A DNA stretch of 41,276 nucleotides, taken from Bacteroidales bacterium (GTDB lineage Bacteria; Bacteroidota; Bacteroidia; Bacteroidales; VadinHA17). The translations under genes were made by a program, and so were the position numbers. The DNA lies in contig JANYJP010000039.1 of assembly GCA_025358455.1 (NCBI GenBank), forward strand, positions 1 to 41,276, read 5' to 3'. The notes under the pieces are model-generated. The model ran no database searches. It saw only the letters and a list, made by a program, of their open reading frames with translations, and was not told where the DNA came from. Shown in pieces: positions 338 to 38,043 of this stretch (positions are counted from its first letter, which is position 1; each line of letters opens with the position of its first letter).

Positions 338-2344
338 CTAAAGATCTATTTCCAGTTTATAACCATTTTCTACTATACTATTTCTTACCCTGGTTCCATC
401 GACAATGATATTAATCTCAATCTTGCTACCCTTCCTTGAAATTAAAAGATCTATTTTTCTGCCTCCAAAAGCAATTATATTCGTTAAAGTCATCCCTTTC
501 CATGTTTCCGGTAACTGAGGAGTTATTGAGAACGAACTTAAACCAGTCGGCCGGAATCCGAACACACCTTCTGTTATAACCCTGCAATATAATGCGCTTT
601 CAGCTGAAAGATGTCGCTGGTTGCCTTCAGGCCATGCCTCAACAGCATACGGAACATGATCGCCCAGAAGGCGACTATTTGAATAAAAAGTAAGATATTT
701 CAGCCCTTTTTCTACTGCTCCGGCAGCAATTACTCCACGCAGACCATATAGCGTTGAGCGATCCCAGAATGTTTCGGATCCTTCCTGTGTAAGCAATCCC
801 TGATCAGTCCAGAGTTTTTGGGAAAACAGAGCATCAACAGTTCCTTTTGCCCTGTCAAATAACCCAACTGTGAGCGGGATGCAAATCCATGAACGCAGAA
901 CATTATTTCCATCATAATACCGATAAGTATCAAATCCATCCACTTTAGCACCAAAATACTTCTCAATACTTGATTTAAGCTCTTTTGCCATTGCATTATA
1001 CTGTGCAATAAGTTTTGGAGATTTACCAAGGTCCCTGCCCAGGTAAGCTGCAGAATTCAGGGCATCGTAAAATAACGATGAGGTACAAAGGTTGGCTGTT
1101 CCTGAAGGGAAACGCCCTTCAAGCTCGTCGCTGTCAGAAGTTACTACTCCATCCTTGTTTATTTTGCGTTTACAATATTCAATGCACCACTCAATTAAGG
1201 GCCATAACTCCTCTGCTGCCTTATGGTCACCCAATGCCAGTGCAAACCTTGAAGCACCATAGGCAATCATAGCCTGGTCTCCCCTGTCGCCTGCGCCGTT
1301 CCAGAATCCGGTACCTTCTGCAATTATTGAACTTGGAATAGGTTTGAAACCGGGATTCATGTATTTTGAAAACCAGCTCCACGACACCATACCTGCTTCA
1401 ATAGCAGTAGAATACCCGGTATAAGCAAAAAAAGGATTTGCATATTCTGCCTGATCGTTAGCCCATATTGCCGCATAATAAGCTCCTCCTCCGGGACTAT
1501 GGACCAGTCCACCTTTAGTTTCATAAATACTTTCCATACCCCTGATCTTCGCAAAAGCAAACATCCTGTTCAGAACAGGATCAGGCGAAGTGAATATCAG
1601 ACTATTAAACATTTTTACCACAAAATCCTGACGCTGTGAGAGCTCTTTTTCTATGACAGGATGCAGTGGTTTATCAGAAATTTTATAACCGGTAAAGATT
1701 ACTGCAAATGTAAGACTTTCTTTTGGGTGTAAGGTAAATATACCTGCTCCTGATGTCTTTGCACTGATCTCATAAACATCATAGACACTTTTCTCCCTGT
1801 GACTACGGGATGTTTTTTCGAAATCTTCTATATCGATTGTTATATCAAGCTCTGAGGAGTTAGCTATCGTAAATTTCTCAATAGCCATCGGTTTATCAGT
1901 TGATGGAAAGAATTCACGTTTACAATTAATGTTGCCGTTTATTTCACTTTCAGTTTTCAGTATCCCCCGAAGAGAGAAACGGGTGATCTTTTCTATGACA
2001 GGTCTGTTGTTTATTTTAATGACAGGTTCTGCTTCAGCTCCAAAAACATACGTGAGACTTGCATGCGTGTCATTAGGAATTGTACGCAGCATCGGAAATA
2101 CAAGTTGTTTGGTACCCTGCAACTTGCCCTTTTCATCAACTCCATAAGTAGCAATTACTGAGATAAACCTGCCGCTCATTTCAATATTATCGGAATGGAG
2201 CTCTCCTGGTTTCACATTCCATATTATACTACCATCAGGGTCAATAACCCAACGGTTCTGACCCTGTAGATTTATAACTGAAAATAATAAAATCAGCAGA
2301 AAAGTAATTTTTGCCTTCAGTTTCAGGACTCTCTGGTTTTCCAT
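338..2344 (-). CDS. Exported six-hairpin glycosidase-like protein
   Basis: The 668-residue protein has a signal peptide (hydrophobic stretch ITFLLILLFSVINLQ, then GQN). Residues of about 30-230 look like a beta-rich N-terminal domain. From about 260 to the end it resembles the (alpha/alpha)6 six-hairpin barrel of GH63/GH78/GH15-like enzymes, with segments such as WANDQAEYANPF, GDRGDQAMIAYGASRFALALGD, FPSGTANLCTSSLFYDAL and EAWPEGNQRHLSAESALYCR. The Asp/Glu-rich turns are typical of inverting glycosidases of this fold. I cannot name a CAZy family or substrate. It ends 153 nt before the GH3 start and begins 4 nt after the stop of the SGNH hydrolase gene, so the latter pair is almost certainly co-transcribed. 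Export implies action on oligosaccharides outside the cytoplasm. Confidence 0.7.
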   Translation of the reverse strand: MENQRVLKLKAKITFLLILLFSVINLQGQNRWVIDPDGSIIWNVKPGELHSDNIEMSGRFISVIATYGVDEKGKLQGTKQLVFPMLRTIPNDTHASLTYVFGAEAEPVIKINNRPVIEKITRFSLRGILKTESEINGNINCKREFFPSTDKPMAIEKFTIANSSELDITIDIEDFEKTSRSHREKSVYDVYEISAKTSGAGIFTLHPKESLTFAVIFTGYKISDKPLHPVIEKELSQRQDFVVKMFNSLIFTSPDPVLNRMFAFAKIRGMESIYETKGGLVHSPGGGAYYAAIWANDQAEYANPFFAYTGYSTAIEAGMVSWSWFSKYMNPGFKPIPSSIIAEGTGFWNGAGDRGDQAMIAYGASRFALALGDHKAAEELWPLIEWCIEYCKRKINKDGVVTSDSDELEGRFPSGTANLCTSSLFYDALNSAAYLGRDLGKSPKLIAQYNAMAKELKSSIEKYFGAKVDGFDTYRYYDGNNVLRSWICIPLTVGLFDRAKGTVDALFSQKLWTDQGLLTQEGSETFWDRSTLYGLRGVIAAGAVEKGLKYLTFYSNSRLLGDHVPYAVEAWPEGNQRHLSAESALYCRVITEGVFGFRPTGLSSFSITPQLPETWKGMTLTNIIAFGGRKIDLLISRKGSKIEINIIVDGTRVRNSIVENGYKLEIDL

Positions 2345-11702: not shown

Positions 11703-11762
11703 GTGAAAATATCTATAATCCATATTATCGTCCTCATCCTCATTCTTGCCGCGAGCACATGA
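11703..11762 (+). CDS. ilvL: ilv-leu operon leader peptide (Ile/Val/Leu-rich, 19 residues)
   Basis: A GTG-initiated ORF encodes MKISIIHIIVLILILAAST, with seven Ile, three Leu and one Val among 19 residues, ending in TGA at 11760-11762. It lies between a good promoter and an intrinsic terminator placed just before ilvD. Such a composition is the signature of leader-peptide attenuators, in which the ribosome senses charged tRNA supply. One nucleotide after the stop codon lies CCGGGAA (11764-11770), identical to part of the terminator's right arm, so ribosome release or stalling decides which hairpin forms. The peptide itself probably has no function. The GTG start is the only start codon that fits. 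Confidence 0.88.
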   Translation: MKISIIHIIVLILILAAST

Positions 11763-11763
11763 T

Positions 11764-11827
11764 CCGGGAATAATATGTATTTATATAAACATACAGAGCT
11801 TTCCGGGAGACCGGGAAGCTTTTTTTT
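11764..11827 (+). promoter_or_regulatory. ilv-leu attenuator: competing antiterminator and terminator
   Basis: The terminator is AGCTTTCCGG (11797-11806), loop GAGA, CCGGGAAGCT (11811-11820) and seven further T (11821-11827); one T-G wobble. The antiterminator pairs CCGGGAA (11764-11770) with TTTCCGG (11800-11806), using the same left-arm bases. A weaker inner pairing TGTAT/ATACA extends that alternative hairpin. A ribosome that reaches the leader stop covers 11764-11770 and leaves the terminator free; one stalled on Ile/Val/Leu codons does not. The predicted result is read-through during branched-chain amino acid shortage. Confidence 0.85.
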
Positions 11828-11841
11828 AATATGCTTTTAAT

Positions 11842-13668
11842 ATGAAGAACGAACTAAGGAGCTCAAAGACAACATCCGGAAGAAATATGGCAGGTGCACG
11901 AAGCCTGTGGCGAGCTAACGGGATGAAGGAAGAACAAATGGGAAAACCTATTATTGCTATCGTAAACTCCTTTTCGCAGTTTGTTCCCGGACATGCTCAT
12001 CTTCATGAAATCGGTCAGTTTGTTAAAAATGAAATTGAAAAAAAGGGTCTTTTTGCAGCTGAATTCAATACAATAGCAATTGATGACGGTATTGCCATGG
12101 GGCATTCAGGAATGCTCTACTCACTTCCTTCAAGAGAACTTATAGCTGACAGCGTCGAATATGTGTGTAATGCACATCTGGCAGACGCTATGATCTGTAT
12201 AAGTAACTGTGATAAGATTACTCCGGGTATGCTGATGGCTGCCATGAGAATAAATATCCCTGTTGTTTTCGTGTCCGGAGGGCCAATGGAGGCCGGTCGT
12301 TTTAAAAATAAATACCTCGATCTGGTTGATGCAATGGTTGCCGCGGCCGATGATACCGTCAGTGATAATGATCTGTATGAGATCGAGAGATCCGCCTGTC
12401 CTACCTGTGGGTCATGTTCAGGAATGTTTACTGCAAATTCAATGAATTGCCTTACTGAAGCATTGGGATTATCACTTCCCGGCAACGGGACCATTGTTGC
12501 TACCCATAAAAACAGGATTAAGTTATTTGAAAAAGCTGCCGCACTGATAGTTGATATGGCTAACAGATATTACAATGATGGCGACGACTCTGTTCTTCCC
12601 CGTTCTATTGCAACAAAAGAGGCATTCATGAATTCAATGTCACTCGATATAGCTATGGGAGGCTCCACTAATACTGTACTTCATCTTCTTGCTGTGGCTC
12701 AGGAAGCCGGTGTTGATTTCACAATGAAGGATATTGATCAGCTTTCACGACGTATTCCAAATATCTGTAAAGTGTCTCCAAGTTCACAATATCACGTTCA
12801 GGATGTTAACCGTGCGGGTGGAATATTAGGCATAATGGGTGAACTGGGACGTGTCGACCTGATAAACACATCAGTGAAACGGGTGGATTACAAAACCCTT
12901 GGAGAAGCAATTGCTGACTGGGATATCCGTGGAGGAAAAGCAAAACCTGCTGCATTCAATACCTTCAAAAGCGCTCCGGCAATGGAGAAAAATCTCAAAA
13001 TGGGTTCACAGGATATGTCATATGAAGAACCCGATACCGACCGGGAAAAAGGCTGTATAAGATCTGTGGAACATGCTTATAGTAAAGACGGCGGACTGGC
13101 CGTACTCTATGGTAATATTGCCCGGAAAGGGTGTATCGTAAAAACAGCCGGTATTGATCCTTTACTTTTTACATTCACCGGGAATGCTGTGATATATGAA
13201 TCGCAGGAAGAATCAGTAGACGGGATCCTGAATGGAGATGTGAAGAAAGGTGATGTAGTCATTATAAGGTATGAAGGTCCGAAAGGTGGTCCGGGTATGC
13301 AGGAAATGCTCTACCCTACTTCATATCTGAAATCGAAGGGGTTAGGTAATGAATGTGCACTAATTACTGATGGAAGGTTTTCAGGCGGCACTTCAGGATT
13401 GTCAATTGGACATGTTTCACCTGAAGCTGCTGCAGGGGGAGAACTGGCTTTACTAAAATCTGGTGATCGTATAGAAATAGATATCCCAAACAGAACAATA
13501 AATGCTCTTATATCGGATAATGAGCTTAATAACCGGAAGAAATCAGAAGAACTGAAAGGCGACAAGGCTTATAAGCCTGAAAACCGTAACCGGGAAATTT
13601 CTTCTGCTTTAAGAGCATATGCCGCCATCGTAAGTTCAGCTGACCTGGGAGCTGTAAGGATGATATAA
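11842..13668 (+). CDS. ilvD: Dihydroxy-acid dehydratase
   Basis: IlvD dehydrates 2,3-dihydroxy-3-methylbutanoate and -pentanoate to the 2-oxo acids that precede valine/leucine and isoleucine. The 608 residues match the usual length. Iron-sulfur ligands are visible in [12 protein letters not shown] (Cys123) and [19 protein letters not shown] (Cys189/Cys192 region); other family blocks are [36 protein letters not shown] and [21 protein letters not shown]. It is the first structural gene of the operon and starts 14 nt after the attenuator U-tract, so the attenuator controls it directly. The gap to ilvB is 64 nt. Confidence 0.97.
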
Positions 13669-23641: not shown

Positions 23642-23695
23642 ATGTACAACATAATATCACATCATCATAATCATACTTGCTCTCAGGCGAGGTGA
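23642..23695 (+). CDS. hisL: his operon leader peptide (His-rich, 17 residues)
   Basis: The ORF encodes MYNIISHHHNHTCSQAR with four His in five positions (residues 7-11), ending in TGA at 23693-23695. It lies between a promoter and a terminator hairpin upstream of hisG. Consecutive His codons are the hallmark of his attenuators in enteric bacteria, where the leader has seven. The codons near the end of the ORF contain TCAGGCG (23683-23689), a copy of the terminator's right arm, so a ribosome that finishes the leader would mask the antiterminator strand. Confidence 0.9.
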   Translation: MYNIISHHHNHTCSQAR

Positions 23696-23760
23696 TTTTG
23701 ATATGTTGATTAATAAAAATATCATAAACCCGTCTGAGCAGATCAGGCGGGTTTATTGCT
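23683..23760 (+). promoter_or_regulatory. his attenuator: competing antiterminator and terminator
   Basis: The terminator stem is AAACCCGTCTGA (23726-23737) with TCAGGCGGGTTT (23743-23754), 12 bp with one wobble and a 5-nt loop; the following U-tract is interrupted (ATTGCTT). The antiterminator pairs TCAGGCG (23683-23689) with CGTCTGA (23731-23737), extended inside by GG/CC, TTT/AAA and TGATAT/ATATCA (up to 23724). Stalling at the His codons leaves 23683-23689 free and should allow read-through into hisG. Confidence 0.82.
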
Positions 23761-31099: not shown

Positions 31100-31129
31100 C
31101 TTGTTTTTTTAAAAATTCCATTACTTTTG
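31100..31129 (+). promoter_or_regulatory. Promoter of the aromatic operon (CTTG / TACTTTTG)
   Basis: TACTTTTG at 31122-31129 matches the -7 consensus TAnnTTTG; CTTG at 31100-31103 is a near-match to -33, with an 18-nt spacer. The leader ATG follows 20 nt after the -7 box. Confidence 0.65.
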
Positions 31130-31149
31130 TAAGCTAATAACACTACCAA

Positions 31150-31215
31150 ATGAATATTGTATACAAAAATTTTATCTCCTACTATTACTTCTATTTTTAT
31201 TTTAAGAACAGATAG
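31150..31215 (+). CDS. Aromatic operon leader peptide (Tyr/Phe-rich, 21 residues)
   Basis: The ORF begins MNIVYKNFIS, continues with eight consecutive aromatic codons YYYFYFYF (31180-31203), and ends KNR and TAG at 31213-31215. Six Tyr and four Phe in 21 residues match the products of the genes that follow (prephenate dehydratase, prephenate dehydrogenase). It sits between a promoter and a U-tailed terminator, so it is very likely a sensor of charged tRNA-Tyr and tRNA-Phe. It has no Trp codon, which argues that tryptophan is not sensed. Enteric pheA leaders sense Phe; a mixed Tyr/Phe sensor is less usual. Confidence 0.9.
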   Translation: MNIVYKNFISYYYFYFYFKNR

Positions 31216-31280
31216 GGGATTTTTGTATACAGATAATTTTAAATTATATGAAAGCAAGGGTCCCTGAACGGGGCTCTTTT
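31159..31280 (+). promoter_or_regulatory. Aromatic attenuator: 1:2 hairpin, antiterminator and terminator
   Basis: A perfect 12-bp inverted repeat, GTATACAAAAAT (31159-31170, in leader codons 4-7) and ATTTTTGTATAC (31219-31230, after the stop), encloses the Tyr/Phe codons and can form the protecting 1:2 hairpin. The terminator is AGGGTCCC (31257-31264), loop, GGGGCTCT (about 31270-31277) with two wobbles, then a run of about nine U. AGGGG (31214-31218, overlapping the leader stop) can pair with TCCCT (31261-31265) as a short antiterminator. Stalling at the aromatic codons disrupts 1:2 and frees AGGGG. Confidence 0.75.
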
Positions 31281-31301
31281 TTTTTAAGTAATATTTTGAT
31301 T

Positions 31302-32132
31302 ATGAAAATTGCAATACAGGGAGAAGCAGGATGTTTTCATGAAGTTGCTGCAAGGCAATACTTCAAATACGATGATGTCGTAATAGTACCATGTTCAACA
31401 TTCGATCTGACTCTCAATACCCTTATTGGAGGCTATGCCGACTTTGCGGTTATGGCAATCGAAAATGCAAGGTCGGGAAGCATACTGTATAATTATACAC
31501 TTATCAGGGAATCAGGAATGAAAATACTTGGTGAACATAACCTGCGTATTAAACAGAACCTTATGGCACTTTATGGCCAGTCAATAACCGATATTAAAGA
31601 GATCAGGACTCATCCGATTGCATTTGCTCAGTGTATGACCTTCCTTAACAAGTATCCGGAAATGACTCTGATAGAAAGTGATGATACTGCAGGAAGTGCA
31701 AGGATCATAAGTGAAAAAAAACTTAAAGGTGTCGCTGCTATTGCTTCATCAAATGCTGCTGAGATTTATGGCCTTGACATAATAGCGCCGGGAATTGAAA
31801 CTTATAAACAAAACTATACCCGGTTTCTGGTTATCGGAAGCGAAGATAAGGGAAACACAAGAGGAAATAAGGTTTCAATATGCTTTTCAACGGGTCATAA
31901 GCCAGGCTCACTCGCGGCTGTACTCGTCAAACTCGCTGAATTACAAATCAACCTTTCAAAAATTCAATCTGTTCCCAGGTTAAATGGTGAGTGGGAATAT
32001 CTGTTTTATCTTGATCTTGAGTTAAGCAAAAATGTTAATTCTGACATAATCAGAAGGGTTCTGGATAAATATACCAGCAATCTTGAGATACTTGGAGTTT
32101 ATTTAAAAGGAGACATGCTATATGAAAGTTAA
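31302..32132 (+). CDS. pheA: Prephenate dehydratase
   Basis: The enzyme converts prephenate to phenylpyruvate for phenylalanine. I choose the ATG at 31302 (MKIAIQGEAGCFHEVAARQY, 276 residues); the in-frame ATG at 31248 would translate through the attenuator terminator. The catalytic domain shows VMAIENARSGSI, HPIAFAQCMTFL, DTAGSARIIS and the TRF motif in NYTRFLVIG. A C-terminal ACT domain (GHKPGSLAAVLVKLAELQIN) follows; the usual ESRP Phe-binding motif reads QSVP here. It has no chorismate mutase domain; that activity is fused to DAHP synthase downstream. It overlaps the next gene by 11 nt. Confidence 0.93.
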   Translation: MKIAIQGEAGCFHEVAARQYFKYDDVVIVPCSTFDLTLNTLIGGYADFAVMAIENARSGSILYNYTLIRESGMKILGEHNLRIKQNLMALYGQSITDIKEIRTHPIAFAQCMTFLNKYPEMTLIESDDTAGSARIISEKKLKGVAAIASSNAAEIYGLDIIAPGIETYKQNYTRFLVIGSEDKGNTRGNKVSICFSTGHKPGSLAAVLVKLAELQINLSKIQSVPRLNGEWEYLFYLDLELSKNVNSDIIRRVLDKYTSNLEILGVYLKGDMLYES

Positions 32133-33306
32133 ACCTGCAGACCGTACACTAACCGTTCAGGAATACTATTTTTCGCAAAAACTTGCCCAGATAGACAGGA
32201 TGCGAAGTGAAGGTTTTGATGTCATTAATCTTGGTATCGGAAGCCCCGACCAGCCGCCTTCAGCCAATACTGTTTCGGCTCTGATCGAAGAAGCAAAAAA
32301 ACCGACCTCGCATGGTTATCAAAATTATTCAGGGATACCGTCTTTGAGAAAAGCCTTCTCAGACTGGTATAAAAAGTACTTTCACGTTGATCTGAATCCT
32401 GACAACGAGATCCTCCTTCTGATGGGAAGCAAAGAAGGAATAATGCATATTAGTATGGCATTTGTCAATCCCGGGGATGAAGTACTTGTTCCGGATCCGG
32501 GTTATCCGACATATTCCTCAGTAACAAACCTGGTTGGAGGTATCGTCAGAAAATATGACCTGGTAAAAGAGAAGGAATGGTTCCCCGATATTGATTCATT
32601 GGAGCGGAGTGATCTCAGCAAGGTAAAACTTATGTGGGTTAACTATCCGAATATGCCAACCGGAACATCATGTTCGGTATCTCAATTTGAAAAGCTTGTT
32701 GCATTTTCCCGGAAACACGGGATACTGCTTTGCAACGACAACCCATACAGCTTCATTCTGAATAAAGATTACCACAGTATTCTGGAGGTGAAGGGAGCAA
32801 AAGAAACAGTTTTGGAACTTAATTCATTAAGTAAGTCGCACAATATGGCTGGCTGGCGTATTGGTATGGTTGCTGGTCACAGTGAATATATAAAGAATGT
32901 GCTAAAGGTAAAAAGCAATATGGATTCAGGTATGTTTCTCGCGATGCAGATGGCTGCAGTAGAAGCACTAAAAAATCCTGAATCGTGGTATGATTCGGTT
33001 AACGCGGTTTATTTAAGGAGGCGGAAAATAGTTGAGGAAATTATGGAAATACTGAAGTGTAAATATGATAAATCACAGGTGGGTTTGTTCGTATGGGGAA
33101 GAATCCCTGAAGAGATTCCGGCCTGTGAAGCTTATGTTGAAGAATTATTGATTAAGACAAATGTATTCATTACGCCCGGATTCATTTTTGGAAAAAATGG
33201 AGAACGTTATATCCGCATATCGCTATGTGCTTCTGAAGCGAGACTGAGTGAAGCCAAAAACAGAATCACAGGTTTCCTTTCACTTAATATCTTAATAACA
33301 AAATAA
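32122..33306 (+). CDS. PLP-dependent aminotransferase class I/II, probably for aromatic oxo acids
   Basis: The 394-residue fold-type I protein has NLGIGSPDQPPS, DPGYPTYSSVTNL, WVNYPNMPTG, CNDNPYSFI, the PLP lysine in SLSKSHNMAGWRIGM, and the carboxylate-binding Arg in YIRISLCA. The sequence resembles the LL-diaminopimelate/aspartate aminotransferase group. Its 11-nt overlap with pheA and position before tyrA suggest it transaminates phenylpyruvate, 4-hydroxyphenylpyruvate or prephenate. That role is inferred from context; diaminopimelate synthesis cannot be excluded. Confidence 0.85.
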   Translation: MKVKPADRTLTVQEYYFSQKLAQIDRMRSEGFDVINLGIGSPDQPPSANTVSALIEEAKKPTSHGYQNYSGIPSLRKAFSDWYKKYFHVDLNPDNEILLLMGSKEGIMHISMAFVNPGDEVLVPDPGYPTYSSVTNLVGGIVRKYDLVKEKEWFPDIDSLERSDLSKVKLMWVNYPNMPTGTSCSVSQFEKLVAFSRKHGILLCNDNPYSFILNKDYHSILEVKGAKETVLELNSLSKSHNMAGWRIGMVAGHSEYIKNVLKVKSNMDSGMFLAMQMAAVEALKNPESWYDSVNAVYLRRRKIVEEIMEILKCKYDKSQVGLFVWGRIPEEIPACEAYVEELLIKTNVFITPGFIFGKNGERYIRISLCASEARLSEAKNRITGFLSLNILITK

Positions 33307-33324: not shown

Positions 33325-34170
33325 ATGACAGTTGCAGTTGTAGGAATCGGCCTTATTGGAGGCTCATTGATGGTTGATCTCCGTAAACGGGGATTTGCTG
33401 ATAAAATAATCGGAGTTGATACCAATATGCATCATCAGAATATTGCTCTGCTTTGTGGGTTGGTTGATGAAAATGACACTCTTGACAATGCTATTGAAAA
33501 GAGTGATCTTATAATTCTTACAACTCCCGTAAATACTAATTGCAGGATGTTACCGGGTATACTCGACAAAATACAAGGCACTACAAAAGTTGTTACCGAT
33601 ATGGGTTCCACAAAAGCCAGTATTGCAGAAGTATCAAAAAACCATCCAGCAAGGGGAAGGTATGTTGCAGTTCATCCAATGGCAGGAACCGAGTATTCAG
33701 GTCCACTTGCTGCTATCGGAAAACTCTTCGACTATAAAACAGCAATTATCTGCGATAAGGAACTCAGCGATAACGATGCCCTCATCAAAATTGAACAAAT
33801 GCTGGATCTGTTGAATATGCACAAGGTATACATGAATTCAGGCGATCATGATGTGCATGTAGCTTATGTTTCACATATTTCACATATTACCTCATTCACT
33901 CTGGCACTATGTGTTCTTGAAAAGGAGCATGAAGAACAAAATATCCTGACACTGGCAGGTGGCGGATTTGAAAGCACTGTACGACTTGCTAAGAGTAATG
34001 CTGAAACATGGGCACCAATATTCCTGGAGAATTCCAAGTGCATTCTTGAAGTTATGGATACATATATTGAAAAAATGAATTCTTTCAGAAAAAAAATATC
34101 AGAAAAAGATATTAACGGATTAAAAGCCCTGATGGAAGAAGCCAATAAGATCAGGAAAATATTAAATTAA
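33325..34170 (+). CDS. tyrA: Prephenate dehydrogenase
   Basis: TyrA oxidatively decarboxylates prephenate to 4-hydroxyphenylpyruvate. The 281-residue monofunctional protein starts with the NAD-binding motif VAVVGIGLIGGSL and has ILTTPVNTN, DMGSTKASI, HPMAGTEYSGP and the catalytic-region His in HDVHVAYVSHISHITSF. There is no fused chorismate mutase or ACT domain. It follows the aminotransferase by 18 nt. The gap to the next gene is 79 nt without a clear signal. Confidence 0.93.
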   Translation: MTVAVVGIGLIGGSLMVDLRKRGFADKIIGVDTNMHHQNIALLCGLVDENDTLDNAIEKSDLIILTTPVNTNCRMLPGILDKIQGTTKVVTDMGSTKASIAEVSKNHPARGRYVAVHPMAGTEYSGPLAAIGKLFDYKTAIICDKELSDNDALIKIEQMLDLLNMHKVYMNSGDHDVHVAYVSHISHITSFTLALCVLEKEHEEQNILTLAGGGFESTVRLAKSNAETWAPIFLENSKCILEVMDTYIEKMNSFRKKISEKDINGLKALMEEANKIRKILN

Positions 34171-34249: not shown

Positions 34250-35365
34250 ATGGTAATAAATCTTGGGAATTCCCTTATTAAAGACTGGAATGGCTATAAA
34301 GGCAGACCTTTTCTTATCTCTGGTCCATGCAGTGCTGAGACTGAAGAGCAAGTTATGGAAACTGCCAGGCAACTTGCAAAGCTAAATGAAGTAAGTGTCT
34401 ATCGTGCAGGTATCTGGAAACCAAGAACACGACCGAATTCATTTGAAGGAGTTGGTTCCGAAGGGTTGAAATGGCTCAGAAGGGTCAAACAGGAAACAGG
34501 CCTTTTGGTTGGTACGGAAGTTGCCAATGAAAAACATGTTTACGAGGCATTAAAATATGGCGTCGATATGTTATGGATCGGGGCGCGTACTTCGGTTAAT
34601 CCGTTCACAGTTCAGGAGATATCTGACGCCCTTAATGGAGTTGATGTTATGGTGCTTGTAAAGAATCCGATAAATCCCGACCTGGAACTATGGATAGGCG
34701 CCATAGAACGAATTGCCAGGGCAGGAATAACCAGGATCGGAGCTATTCATCGTGGCTTCTCTTCATACGAAAAGACATTATATCGTAATCAGCCCAACTG
34801 GCAATTGCCAATAGAATTGAGAAGACGGATTCCGGATTTACCAATTATATGTGATCCAAGTCATATTTCCGGATCGAGGCAGTATCTGCATGAAATTTCC
34901 CAAAAGGCAATGGACCTGAACTTTGATGGATTAATGATTGAATCGCATATTGATCCTGCAAATGCGTTAAGTGATGCCGCTCAACAGCTAACGCCAAACG
35001 ATCTAAAGGAGCTTTTAAGCAGGCTGATATACAGGAATGCAAGCACATCTGATCCTAAATTGCTTGATGTACTTGGCGAACTCAGACAGCAGATCGATGT
35101 TTATGATGATCATCTTCTTGACCTGATGGAACAAAGAATGAAAATAGCAGAAACCATAGGGCAGTATAAAAAGGAAAATAATATCACTATCTTGCAGAGT
35201 ACCAGATGGGATGAAATTATAAATAAAGTGATGGCCAGGGGAAAGGCAAAAGGGCTTAGTGCAGACCTGATTGATACAATTTTCAAGGCAATTCACCAGG
35301 AGTCTATTAACCATCAGATGAAGGTCATGAATAATGATGCAAAAGATCATGACGATAAAAAATAA
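34250..35365 (+). CDS. DAHP synthase fused to chorismate mutase
   Basis: Residues 1-265 are a type I beta (KDO8PS-like) DAHP synthase: ISGPCSAETEEQV, YRAGIWKPRTRPNSFEGVG, GTEVANEKHVYEAL, WIGARTSVNP, GAIHRGFSSYEK, CDPSHISGSR and MIESHIDP with metal ligands. Residues from about 280 are an AroQ-type chorismate mutase (LRQQIDVYDDHLLDLMEQRM, AETIGQYKKENNI). The first half makes the first shikimate intermediate from PEP and erythrose 4-phosphate, the second makes prephenate from chorismate. In characterised fusions the mutase domain mediates feedback by prephenate or chorismate. The arrangement links the entry step to the Phe/Tyr branch, matching the Tyr/Phe leader. Confidence 0.94.
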   Translation: MVINLGNSLIKDWNGYKGRPFLISGPCSAETEEQVMETARQLAKLNEVSVYRAGIWKPRTRPNSFEGVGSEGLKWLRRVKQETGLLVGTEVANEKHVYEALKYGVDMLWIGARTSVNPFTVQEISDALNGVDVMVLVKNPINPDLELWIGAIERIARAGITRIGAIHRGFSSYEKTLYRNQPNWQLPIELRRRIPDLPIICDPSHISGSRQYLHEISQKAMDLNFDGLMIESHIDPANALSDAAQQLTPNDLKELLSRLIYRNASTSDPKLLDVLGELRQQIDVYDDHLLDLMEQRMKIAETIGQYKKENNITILQSTRWDEIINKVMARGKAKGLSADLIDTIFKAIHQESINHQMKVMNNDAKDHDDKK

Positions 35366-35379
35366 AATATAAGTAACCT

Positions 35380-36630
35380 ATGGAAAGATTAATTGATCCG
35401 TCCGCAATTAAAGGCAATATCAAAGCTCCGGCTTCAAAAAGTATGACTCAGCGGGCTGTTGCTGCCGCATTACTGGCTGACGGACAAAGCATAATCCAAA
35501 ATCCATCTTATTGCGATGATTCATTAGCTGCAATGAGTATTGCTGTTGGTTTGGGAGCACGGGTGGAACCACAGGTTCATGAACTGAAAATCACTGGATC
35601 TGCAATTCTGAAAGAGCCGAAACTTAATTGCGGCGAATCGGGACTGGCTATCCGTATGTTTGCTCCTATCGCAGCATTATATCCTGTTGAGATAACAATG
35701 GTTGGGGCAAATTCGCTTAAGAAAAGACCTATGTTTATGATTGAAGAAGCCCTGAACCAGCTTGGGGTGAAGTGTTCAAGCTCAAATGGGTTTCTTCCGC
35801 TTACCATTCAGGGACCAATCAAAGGAGGCCGTTGTGAAATTGACGGATCTGTAAGTAGTCAGCTTTTAACAGGGTTGCTGATGGCACTTCCTCTTGCCGC
35901 TAAAGACTCAGAAATAAAAGTAAATAACCTGAAGAGTAAACCATACATTGATATGACTATTCAGTTACTTAAATCATTCGGTATTACAATTCAAAACACA
36001 GGTTATAACCTGTTTCAGATACATGGCAATCAAAAGTATATACCTCACAACTACACAGTTGAAGGAGACTGGAGTGGTGGGGCATTTCTTCTTGTGGCCG
36101 GCGCAATAAACGGACAGATTAAAATAGAGGGTCTGCGGAGCGACAGTATGCAAAGCGATATGGCTATCATCAAGGCTCTTAAGGCTGCCGGTGCAAAAAT
36201 GAATATAAATGAAAACCATATTGAAATTTCAAAATCCGAACTTAAATCATTTGATTTTGATGCTACTGAATCGCCTGACCTTTTCCCTCCTCTTGTTGCC
36301 CTGGCAGCTTATTGCGATGGCAAATCCAATATCAAAGGAGTTTCACGGTTAATATTTAAGGAGAGCAACAGAGCTTCAACACTCAAAGAAGAGTTCGGAA
36401 AGATGAACATTAGTGTTGATATTAAAGATGATGTTATGACTGTTACAGGCGGTCAGACAAAAGGGGCGCGTGTTGAATCGCATGATGATCACAGGATTGC
36501 TATGGCAGTTGCCGTTGCATCTCTTGGTGCTGAAGGAAAAGTTCACATCAGGGATTCTCAATGTGTTGCAAAATCATATCCGGGCTTTTTTGACGATCTC
36601 CGGAATCTTGGAGCAGTTATTCATGAATGA
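35380..36630 (+). CDS. aroA: 3-phosphoshikimate 1-carboxyvinyltransferase (EPSP synthase)
   Basis: AroA adds enolpyruvate from PEP to shikimate 3-phosphate. In 416 residues it has KSMTQRAVAAALLADG, CGESGLAIRMFAPIAAL, SSQLLTGLLMALPLA, ESPDLFPPLVALAAYCDG, KESNRASTLKEEFGKM and SHDDHRIAMAVAVASLG. The first substrate-binding loop reads NCGESGLAIR where many enzymes have NAGTAMR or NSGTT.R, a class variant. It starts 14 nt after the fused DAHP synthase gene. No other shikimate gene (aroB, aroC, aroE) is in the window. Confidence 0.94.
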   Translation: MERLIDPSAIKGNIKAPASKSMTQRAVAAALLADGQSIIQNPSYCDDSLAAMSIAVGLGARVEPQVHELKITGSAILKEPKLNCGESGLAIRMFAPIAALYPVEITMVGANSLKKRPMFMIEEALNQLGVKCSSSNGFLPLTIQGPIKGGRCEIDGSVSSQLLTGLLMALPLAAKDSEIKVNNLKSKPYIDMTIQLLKSFGITIQNTGYNLFQIHGNQKYIPHNYTVEGDWSGGAFLLVAGAINGQIKIEGLRSDSMQSDMAIIKALKAAGAKMNINENHIEISKSELKSFDFDATESPDLFPPLVALAAYCDGKSNIKGVSRLIFKESNRASTLKEEFGKMNISVDIKDDVMTVTGGQTKGARVESHDDHRIAMAVAVASLGAEGKVHIRDSQCVAKSYPGFFDDLRNLGAVIHE

Positions 36631-36669: not shown

Positions 36670-38043
36670 ATGATAAAAACTATGGAAACGATCAGAAAAA
36701 TTATTTTAACAGAAAAAGAAATGCCAAGGCAATGGTATAATATCATTCCTGACATGCCAAACAAACCAATGCCTCCACTTCATCCTGTAACCCGGATGCC
36801 TGTGGGCCCTGAGGATCTGGCTGCTGTTTTTCCCATGGAGTTAATAAAGCAGGAGGTCTCGGCAGAAAGATATATTGATATACCGGAAGAGGTTCTTGAC
36901 CTTTACAGGACCTTTCGTCCCTCTCCTCTGTTCAGGGCTGTTAATCTTGAAAAAGCACTTGGAACAAAAAGCAAAATTTACTATAAATATGAAGGTGGTA
37001 ATTATTCAGGCTCTCATAAAGCTAACACTGCTATTCCCCAGGCTTATTACAATAAAAAAGAGGGAGTCAGGAGGATCACTACAGAGACAGGAGCCGGACA
37101 ATGGGGTAGCGCTATGAGTTTCGCGTGTCAGTACTTCGGCCTTGAGCTTCTGGTGTTCATGGTTAAAGTCAGTTACGATCAAAAACCAGGACGGAAACTT
37201 TTGATGAATACTTATAATGCCAAGGTGATAGCTTCGCCAAGCACTATGACAGTTTACGGCAGGAAAGTCCTTGAGCTGGATCCTGACTCACCCGGATCTC
37301 TCGGTATAGCAATTTCTGAAGCAATGGAGGTTGCTGTACAGGATCCATATACTAAATATTCCCTTGGCAGTGTTCTCAATCATGTAATTCTTCACCAGAC
37401 AATTATAGGCGAAGAAGCTCTGATTCAAATGGGAAAGACCGGCGATTACCCCGACGTAGTAATTGGTTGTTTTGGGGGCGGATCAAACTTCTCAGGAATT
37501 GCATTTCCATTCCTTCGTGAAAAACTTCATAGCAAAAAGAAAACCAGATTTGTAGCTGTTGAACCTGCATCATGTCCCAAACTTACCAAAGGGAAATTCA
37601 TGTATGACTTTGGCGATTCGGCCGGGATGACACCTCTCCTTCCGATGTACACTCTCGGACATAATTATATACCTGAGAAGATCCACGCGGGAGGTTTACG
37701 TTACCACGGTGCAGGAGTAATTGTGAGCCAGCTCCTGAAAGACGGACTCATAGAAGCAAAGGCAAAGATGCAAAGGGAATGTTTTGAGGCAGGTGTGCTT
37801 TTTGCAAGAACAGAAGGCATTCTTCCTGCTCCTGAATCAACTTATGCAATCGCAGGAGCACTTGATGAAGCAAGAAAAGCCGATCTTGAGGGAGTATCAA
37901 AAACAATACTTTTTAACCTTAGCGGTCATGGTCATTTCGATATTTCTGCCTATGAGAAGTATTTTGAGAATAATCTGCCGGATCATGAACTGACCACCGC
38001 GGAGATCGAAGATGCTATTTCTAAAATAAATCTACCATCCTGA
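36670..38043 (+). CDS. trpB2: TrpB2-type tryptophan synthase beta-like enzyme
   Basis: The 457-residue PLP fold-type II protein has the long N-terminal extension (MPRQWYNIIPDMPNKPMPPL, a TrpB2 feature), RPSPLFRAVNLEKALG, the PLP lysine in YSGSHKANTAIPQAYY, ETGAGQWGSAMSFACQYFG, and the phosphate loop CFGGGSNFSGIAFPF. TrpB2 enzymes make tryptophan from indole and serine and do not form the usual tight complex with TrpA. No trpA or other trp gene is near. An alternative start at 36682 removes four residues. It is the last plus-strand gene before a convergent junction. Confidence 0.92.
   Translation: MIKTMETIRKIILTEKEMPRQWYNIIPDMPNKPMPPLHPVTRMPVGPEDLAAVFPMELIKQEVSAERYIDIPEEVLDLYRTFRPSPLFRAVNLEKALGTKSKIYYKYEGGNYSGSHKANTAIPQAYYNKKEGVRRITTETGAGQWGSAMSFACQYFGLELLVFMVKVSYDQKPGRKLLMNTYNAKVIASPSTMTVYGRKVLELDPDSPGSLGIAISEAMEVAVQDPYTKYSLGSVLNHVILHQTIIGEEALIQMGKTGDYPDVVIGCFGGGSNFSGIAFPFLREKLHSKKKTRFVAVEPASCPKLTKGKFMYDFGDSAGMTPLLPMYTLGHNYIPEKIHAGGLRYHGAGVIVSQLLKDGLIEAKAKMQRECFEAGVLFARTEGILPAPESTYAIAGALDEARKADLEGVSKTILFNLSGHGHFDISAYEKYFENNLPDHELTTAEIEDAISKINLPS

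Follow-up and report, generated by a model that had tools for sequence, protein, structure and literature searches.

The aromatic amino acid operon of the DNA analysed here is very probably controlled by a ribosome-mediated transcription attenuator, in which the Phe and Tyr codons of a single leader peptide would act as an OR gate. The anatomy of this leader, its conservation among relatives, the covariation of its stems and the match between its codons and the gene content of the operons carry the finding. At the level of sequence, they support the joint Phe/Tyr attenuator with a protecting stem put forward in the original prediction, as the 1:2 stem covaries, a terminator and an antiterminator are present, the Phe/Tyr block is conserved and the Tyr codons appear to follow operon content. 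The leader ORF is found in the window, i.e. the whole stretch of 41,276 nucleotides from a Bacteroidales bacterium, where it is flanked by a Bacteroidetes-type promoter box upstream and an intrinsic terminator downstream and precedes a six-gene aromatic operon. Its features are the following.

31101..31129, + strand: putative Bacteroidetes sigma promoter, with TTG at 31101-31103 and the -7 box TACTTTTG at 31122-31129
31150-31215, + strand: leader ORF MNIVYKNFISYYYFYFYFKNR of 21 codons, with ATG at 31150 and TAG stop at 31213-31215
31158..31170, + strand: segment 1, 5' arm of the protecting hairpin, inside leader codons 3-7
31180-31203, + strand: control codons YYYFYFYF, leader codons 11-18
31216..31231, + strand: segment 2 GGGATTTTTGTATACA, immediately 3' of the leader stop, with segment 1 or segment 3 as partner
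31254..31264, + strand: segment 3 GCAAGGGTCCC, shared by the antiterminator (as 3' arm) and the terminator (as 5' arm)
31256..31285, + strand: intrinsic terminator, with stem 31256-31264/31270-31278 and T-run 31277-31285

The eight successive Tyr and Phe codons announced earlier are borne out, codons 11-18 reading YYYFYFYF. The TTG of the putative promoter stands 18 nt upstream of the -7 box, the Bacteroidetes promoter consensus being given in the available text of PMC9723704. A TAnnTTTG motif is located 17-21 nt upstream of the leader ATG in 46/46 sequences of the close group (window included), versus 166/4600 mononucleotide shuffles. A further ATG, in the antiterminator loop, opens a 294-aa ORF (31248-32132) in frame with pheA through the terminator; this start at 31248 is probably unused because leader lengths differ between relatives.

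The operon itself, downstream of the terminator, comprises six genes.

31302..32132, + strand: pheA, prephenate dehydratase, first operon gene (PRK11898, E 1.3e-57, 195.1 bits, below the cut-off of 219)
32122..33306, + strand: PLP aminotransferase (best model 405 bits, under the cut-off of 507)
33325..34170, + strand: tyrA, prephenate dehydrogenase (PRK08507, 311.6 bits, above the cut-off of 295)
34250..35365, + strand: aroF-type DAHP synthase-chorismate mutase fusion (both kinds of model matched, under their cut-offs)
35380..36630, + strand: aroA, EPSP synthase (TIGR01356, 385.9 bits, above the cut-off of 287.25)
36670..38043, + strand: trpB2-type TrpB-like enzyme (PRK12391, 707.8 bits, above the cut-off of 366)

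Gene names are those of the NCBIfam best hits, and the curated cut-off of the top model is passed by tyrA, aroA and the TrpB-like enzyme only; the pheA product exceeds the Pfam cut-off for PF00800. The gap between aroA and trpB2, 39 nt in the window, reaches about 220-270 nt (between alignment ends) in three related loci, L163, L164 and L165, where trpB2 may have its own control.

The window displays the hallmarks of a classic attenuator: an apparent leader ORF between promoter and first gene, a codon run cognate to the operon products, a terminator (3:4), an antiterminator (2:3) mutually exclusive with it, and a protecting hairpin (1:2). The latter is a perfect 13-bp inverted repeat (31158-31170 with 31219-31231) whose arms are 48 nt apart and enclose the eight aromatic codons. 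A perfect repeat with the control codons in its loop had been predicted and stands, whereas the 12 bp originally assigned to it (31159-31170/31219-31230) fall one pair short. Pairing energies in the window amount to -9.5 for 1:2, -11.5 for 2:3 (-14.1 with an inner helix) and -13.0 for 3:4.

Shuffling of the window sequence seldom reproduces these features. A run of at least eight Tyr or Phe in the best short ORF arose in 1/5000 dinucleotide shuffles of the 300 nt upstream, and a perfect inverted repeat of at least 13 in 0/300 shuffles of 31137-31285; the leader RNA folds with z = -4.37, none of 200 shuffles being equally stable. A chance AT-rich stretch lying before an ordinary terminator is the explanation to which we give next to no probability. 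What speaks for it is that the 3.4-Mb genome contains the pattern of eight TWY codons a second time, out of frame inside a gene that looks, from its translation, like a transporter permease, and that the reversed pattern occurs four times. The bare codon run is thus not unique in the genome, and the case therefore rests on context and on conservation in relatives. The same pattern search revealed no second aromatic leader in this genome, its sole other match being the out-of-frame one. Comparative data already refute the chance explanation: at least eight Phe, Tyr or Trp within 10 codons of a short ORF were found in 47/69 upstream regions of a second sample versus 0/2070 shuffles. This sample includes 70 loci, mostly of the same order and with six close relatives among them, giving 69 usable upstream regions; L215, a duplicate of L159, and L190, with only 21 nt upstream, were dropped.

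Conservation was assessed from pheA searches, which gave 82 loci, 79 of them with a recognisable start (L023, L053 and L077 were dropped as no pheA start was found), and 55 unique upstream regions, window included, after duplicates with identical first 300 nt of pheA had been collapsed. A Tyr/Phe-rich leader ORF precedes pheA in 53/55 of these regions, including all 46 of the closer group, and is absent in L080 and L082. The leader picker selects on aromatic content, scoring Phe, Tyr and Trp alike except in this 55-region survey (Phe plus Tyr), so that counts of leaders present are partly circular; a shuffle control was run for the second sample. It never chooses between Tyr and Phe. In the alignment of the window with 45 close relatives, the eight-codon block comprises 354/368 Phe (208) or Tyr (146) codons, with 14 others. 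Block positions alternate between both residues across the 46 sequences, all four Phe/Tyr codons being in use, and positions -10 and -6 are mainly Tyr (38/46 and 39/46).

The original prediction had suggested looking for the 1:2 stem in relatives. It is present and covaries among the 46 sequences, though it is usually shorter or interrupted: the median uninterrupted helix is 10, as compared with the 13 bp of the window, and an uninterrupted helix of at least 8 (G-U allowed) is found in 39/46. Since one of the 13 pairs forms in only 6/45 sequences, the perfect 13 bp is a trait of the window and a few others. Taken together, stems 1:2 and 3:4 contain 45 cells in which both sides have changed, versus 13.6 +/- 2.9 in shuffles (0/500 as high), and in stem 1:2, compensatory double changes affect 6/13 pairs although segment 1 is also coding. 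When the partner is slid by 1-3 columns, every measure weakens, the paired cells falling from 86.5% to at most 59.4%, the double changes from 45 to at most 30 and the covariation score from 0.219 to at most 0.103. Among 27 non-redundant sequences, 1:2 duplexes with the own partner average -14.14 kcal/mol versus -10.58 for swapped ones, with 0/5000 permutations as strong. Segments 2 and 3 pair in 91.7% of cells of the 46-sequence alignment, without covariation because the core of segment 2, GGGATTnTTGT, is invariant in the 46 sequences except for its variable base n. This invariant core fits a strand that would serve two partners, a consistency that falls short of proof.

The arms of the protecting hairpin could also be read as DNA elements. 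A direct repeat, whose two copies stand 66 nt apart, contains the self-complementary TGTATACA in each copy, as would befit two operators of a TyrR-like repressor with the short ORF being incidental. We regard such operators as very improbable. In a self-palindromy test, by which this operator pair was rejected, both arms carry a self-palindromic 8-mer in only 18/46 sequences, whereas complementarity between the two arms is retained, with compensatory changes; moreover, the repeats lie downstream of the promoter box, inside the presumed transcript. Slightly less probable still is an ORF that encodes a functional aromatic-rich small protein, for instance a membrane peptide, with RNA pairing secondary. 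The leader peptide is conserved among close relatives, as a functional protein would be, but across families it is mainly the richness in Phe and Tyr (or Trp) that survives while length and flanking residues vary freely, and segment 1 is under base-pairing constraint.

In the attenuator that we favour, from whose elements we infer the start site, the stalling, the timing and the response to each amino acid, RNA polymerase would start near 31136 and a ribosome would begin the leader at 31150. With plentiful charged tRNA-Phe and tRNA-Tyr, the ribosome would reach the stop at 31213-31215 and cover the start of segment 2; segment 3 would then be available for pairing with segment 4 into the terminator, which would end transcription before pheA. 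If Phe or Tyr were short, the ribosome would stall in the YYYFYFYF block and hold segment 1 apart, leaving segment 2 free to pair with the emerging segment 3, so that the terminator would fail and the operon would be transcribed. Without translation, the 1:2 hairpin would protect the terminator. The codon set would thereby work as an OR gate over those products for which the genes of this transcript are needed.

This scheme was modelled by masking a ribosome footprint, in two sizes, at each codon. The RNA was folded truncated just after segment 3, since 2:3 must form before segment 4 exists, a choice made after the full-length equilibrium result was known. With the A site on any block codon, the mean antiterminator probability over the 46 sequences is 0.97-0.98 if no pairs may bridge the ribosome and 0.80-0.98 if such bridging is allowed. 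Within the few codons that follow the block, this value drops steeply, and it is 0.00-0.16 once the ribosome has reached the stop (45 sequences). Any ribosome position upstream of the block also gives 0.97-0.98, and the fold therefore sets a switch-off point just past the block and does not single the block out. For the window, the truncated fold without bridging keeps the antiterminator at 0.99 or more throughout the block; with bridging, it stays at 0.84 or more over the block under the larger footprint and falls to 0.56, 0.08 and 0.07 at the final three control codons under the smaller one. If the truncated RNA carries no ribosome, stem 1:2 clearly prevails in the window (antiterminator 0.03), as opposed to a mean of 0.73 over the 46 sequences.

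At full-length equilibrium without bridging, the window antiterminator reaches 0.89-0.96 at Y10-Y14 (numbered from 0) and 0.48-0.49 at F15-F17; with bridging, only S9 (0.53) and Y10 (0.22) give a sizeable share. Over the 46 sequences, the mean at full-length equilibrium is at most 0.25. The predicted choice between 2:3 and 3:4 by ribosome position thus agrees with the truncated fold and, in part, with the full-length equilibrium. As the latter seldom favours the antiterminator, the attenuator model would need co-transcriptional timing, as in the trp attenuator, whose mechanism and timing role are treated in the available text of PMC1183508.

Whether Tyr codons matter as such is best judged from operons of different content. 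Among the 62 leaders called in the second sample, 55 precede aroF-chorismate mutase operons, 5 precede pheA alone and 2 precede pheA with an aminotransferase only. All 55 of the first kind have Tyr in the core, 54 of them at least twice, with a mean Tyr share of 0.42. Conversely, the pheA-alone cores L155, L214 and L195 are devoid of Tyr, two Tyr being found in the tail of L195, whereas L172 has a single one, at position 2. The latter, in which Phe alternates and aromatic runs do not exceed two, is the weakest of the four pheA-alone calls, 4.3% of shuffles reaching its score. A fifth call holding Tyr, L180, was judged false, as it lacks a terminator and never has more than two aromatic residues in succession; it was kept in the test of core Tyr against operon content (Fisher p = 0.0003) and left out of the pooled core counts. 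Both leaders before pheA and aminotransferase only contain Tyr; they are L218 and L185, the latter on a contig that stops shortly downstream. Family f19 shows both situations: in L155, pheA stands alone behind a Phe-only leader, and in L182, the full operon follows a mixed one.

The four genomes with pheA alone have aroF and/or tyrA elsewhere, with leaders of their own; by eye, a terminator-like hairpin and a T-run could be recognised after each of these.

G053: leader MNNTFGYYAFYYYFFYNN, before tyrA-aroF
G358: leader MIKNISVFAYFYYYFYFSKK, before aat-aroF-tyrA
G368: leader MAPVHTYYAWSFFFFYFQNKRGHAV, about 300 nt before tyrA
G428: tandem leaders MTTYTFSYFYYWFRTP and MVNFEFYYGFYYYLD, before aat-tyrA-aroF-aroA

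In G368, aroF is at the contig end with no leader in view, and the second aroF copy of G428 has no convincing leader. The tandem leaders of G428, located at about 60-310 of the reversed locus L228 (reverse strand), each have their own terminator-like hairpin, one containing Tyr, Phe and Trp and the other Tyr and Phe. Pooled over the four genomes, the pheA-alone cores hold 28 Phe and 1 Tyr, whereas the leaders of separate tyrA/aroF operons hold 19 Phe and 23 Tyr, codons in these counts being no independent events and four genomes making a small sample.

This contrast is the best evidence that Tyr codons are selected, and it bears on a Phe-only attenuator, in which stalling at Phe codons would do the work and Tyr would be tolerated, TAY and TTY being one base apart and both keeping the loop unstructured. 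The Corynebacterium glutamicum AroR leader peptide (Phe-Tyr-Phe) provides a precedent, as it reportedly responds to limitation of Phe and not of Tyr (Neshat 2014, as summarised in the available text of the review PMC11802643), and Phe also exceeds Tyr in the conserved block. Because of this precedent, Tyr sensing by the window leader is something that we infer. A Phe-only attenuator nevertheless seems unlikely to us, for it leaves unaccounted the Tyr share of the 55 operon leaders set against 1/29 in the four pheA-alone cores, the Tyr-rich leaders of separate tyrA/aroF operons and the two block positions that are mainly Tyr. Comparison of sequences thus argues strongly for joint Phe/Tyr control, the key contrast coming from four genomes. 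The joint leader had been proposed as fitting an operon with both pheA and tyrA; Tyr codons do follow gene content, but they track aroF-chorismate mutase and not tyrA alone, since operons without detected tyrA keep Tyr. A diverged tyrA may have been overlooked in some of these.

Aromatic leaders extend beyond close relatives. In a first sample, every other family of the order whose upstream sequence could be read has one (11/11; L122, lacking such sequence, was excluded). Elsewhere in the class, 4/9 loci do (one each in f27 and f28, two in f30), and the remaining five, three of f29 and two of f34, do not; in the phylum's other classes, the count is 0/11. At a threshold of at least five, which 16% of shuffles reach, 62/70 loci of the second sample were called and 8 were not. 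A third sample of 20 class loci yielded 14 leaders with terminator, each with both Tyr and Phe, L237 and L243 being called only at the threshold of 5; six loci remained uncalled. One class-level relative, L135, carries a Flavo-1 RNA (RF01705, 78.6 bits) at 488-565 (+), upstream of the pheA leader and antisense to the direction of pheA.

The window leader contains no Trp codon, as was stated in the original prediction, but this absence is not general, 17/55 leaders ahead of aroF-chorismate mutase operons having Trp in the core. Within the closer group, a single Trp is found at codon 7, upstream of the block, in 4/46 sequences (L024, L026, L060 and L070). Leaders with Phe, Tyr and Trp in or beside the control run include L113, L114, L115, L132, L201 and others. 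That leader Trp simply accompanies trpB2 was considered and rejected, as trpB2 occurs with and without it: L163, L164, L165 and the window all carry trpB2, but only the first two have a leader Trp.

These distributions lead us to think it probable that the aromatic leader is a rewritable codon register across the order and much of the class, of which the window would represent a Tyr-responsive Phe/Tyr OR gate. Such a register would combine Phe and Tyr where the operon is joint, be confined to Phe for a lone pheA and turn Tyr-rich before separate tyrA/aroF operons; it would also cover the tandem leaders of one genome and the Trp codons of about one third of the operon leaders.

Besides the aromatic leader, two other candidates were read by eye in the window.

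23642-23695, + strand: His leader MYNIISHHHNHTCSQAR, behind a TACCTTTG box and ahead of his genes
11703-11762, + strand: branched-chain leader VKISIIHIIVLILILAAST, with GTG start, behind a TACATTTG box

The first is followed by a terminator-like stem at about 23726-23755, to whose 5' arm a segment after the His codons is complementary, and by hisA, hisF and hisIE (NCBIfam hits). The second is followed by a terminator at about 11798-11828 and by an ORF at 11842, presumed to start an ilv operon. The window thus probably holds three amino-acid attenuators (aromatic, His and branched-chain).

The aromatic leader suggests that a single RNA switch integrates signals from two amino acids on behalf of an entire aromatic operon, in a phylum, Bacteroidetes, for which we found little work on amino-acid attenuators. 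Genomes with a separate pheA serve as evolutionary controls and suggest that codon sets follow gene content. This match predicts which amino acid derepresses which operon, and the same genomes bear on why the known Phe-Tyr-Phe leader reportedly ignores Tyr.

The window leader is real and, judged by its build, of the trp type, i.e. a known mechanism of which we found no joint Phe/Tyr variant described. Indeed, no Tyr-responsive leader and no Phe/Tyr leader of Bacteroidetes was found in a literature whose coverage was incomplete. No Rfam family, T-box included, matches the window at its gathering threshold, and nothing credible appears up to E 10; Phe_leader (RF01859) reaches 19 bits, its gathering score being 55. 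Bacteroid-trp (RF01692), to judge from its name probably a trp leader, has no match at the gathering threshold in the window or 20 related loci. In the available text of PMC2864571, it is listed as a putative cis-regulatory RNA of Bacteroidetes. Leader-peptide-like sORFs in Bacteroides are mentioned in the accessible part of PMC7366714, while general leader-gene statistics are provided by that of PMC4833913, where a comparative analysis of attenuation (Lopatovskaya 2010) is cited. In Acholeplasma, the uORFC-13-1 motif upstream of aroF has been predicted to be a uORF attenuator, with one Phe codon or more and 24 representatives (PMC8632094); it belongs to another phylum and is described with Phe only.

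Closer to the window in both phylum and gene, with no Rfam hit either, are the structured 5' elements of Flavobacterium psychrophilum and other Flavobacteriaceae described upstream of pheA and hisG, for which the available text of PMC9723704 proposes leader-peptide attenuation of amino-acid operons generally. Codon content, alternative pairing and a role of Tyr are absent from that text.

The Escherichia coli pheL-pheA attenuator works through alternative hairpins and a terminator. As in the window, a leader peptide precedes pheA, and in E. coli it reportedly responds to Phe-charged tRNA (PMC11802643 and PMC1183508); the difference is that the window leader serves a six-gene operon and contains codons for both Phe and Tyr. 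Another likeness in codon content is C. glutamicum aroR, a ribosome-mediated attenuator of a DAHP-synthase operon with mixed Phe/Tyr codons, as described in the available text of PMC11802643. The window leader differs from it in its phylum, in its eight codons in a row and in Tyr codons that follow gene content.
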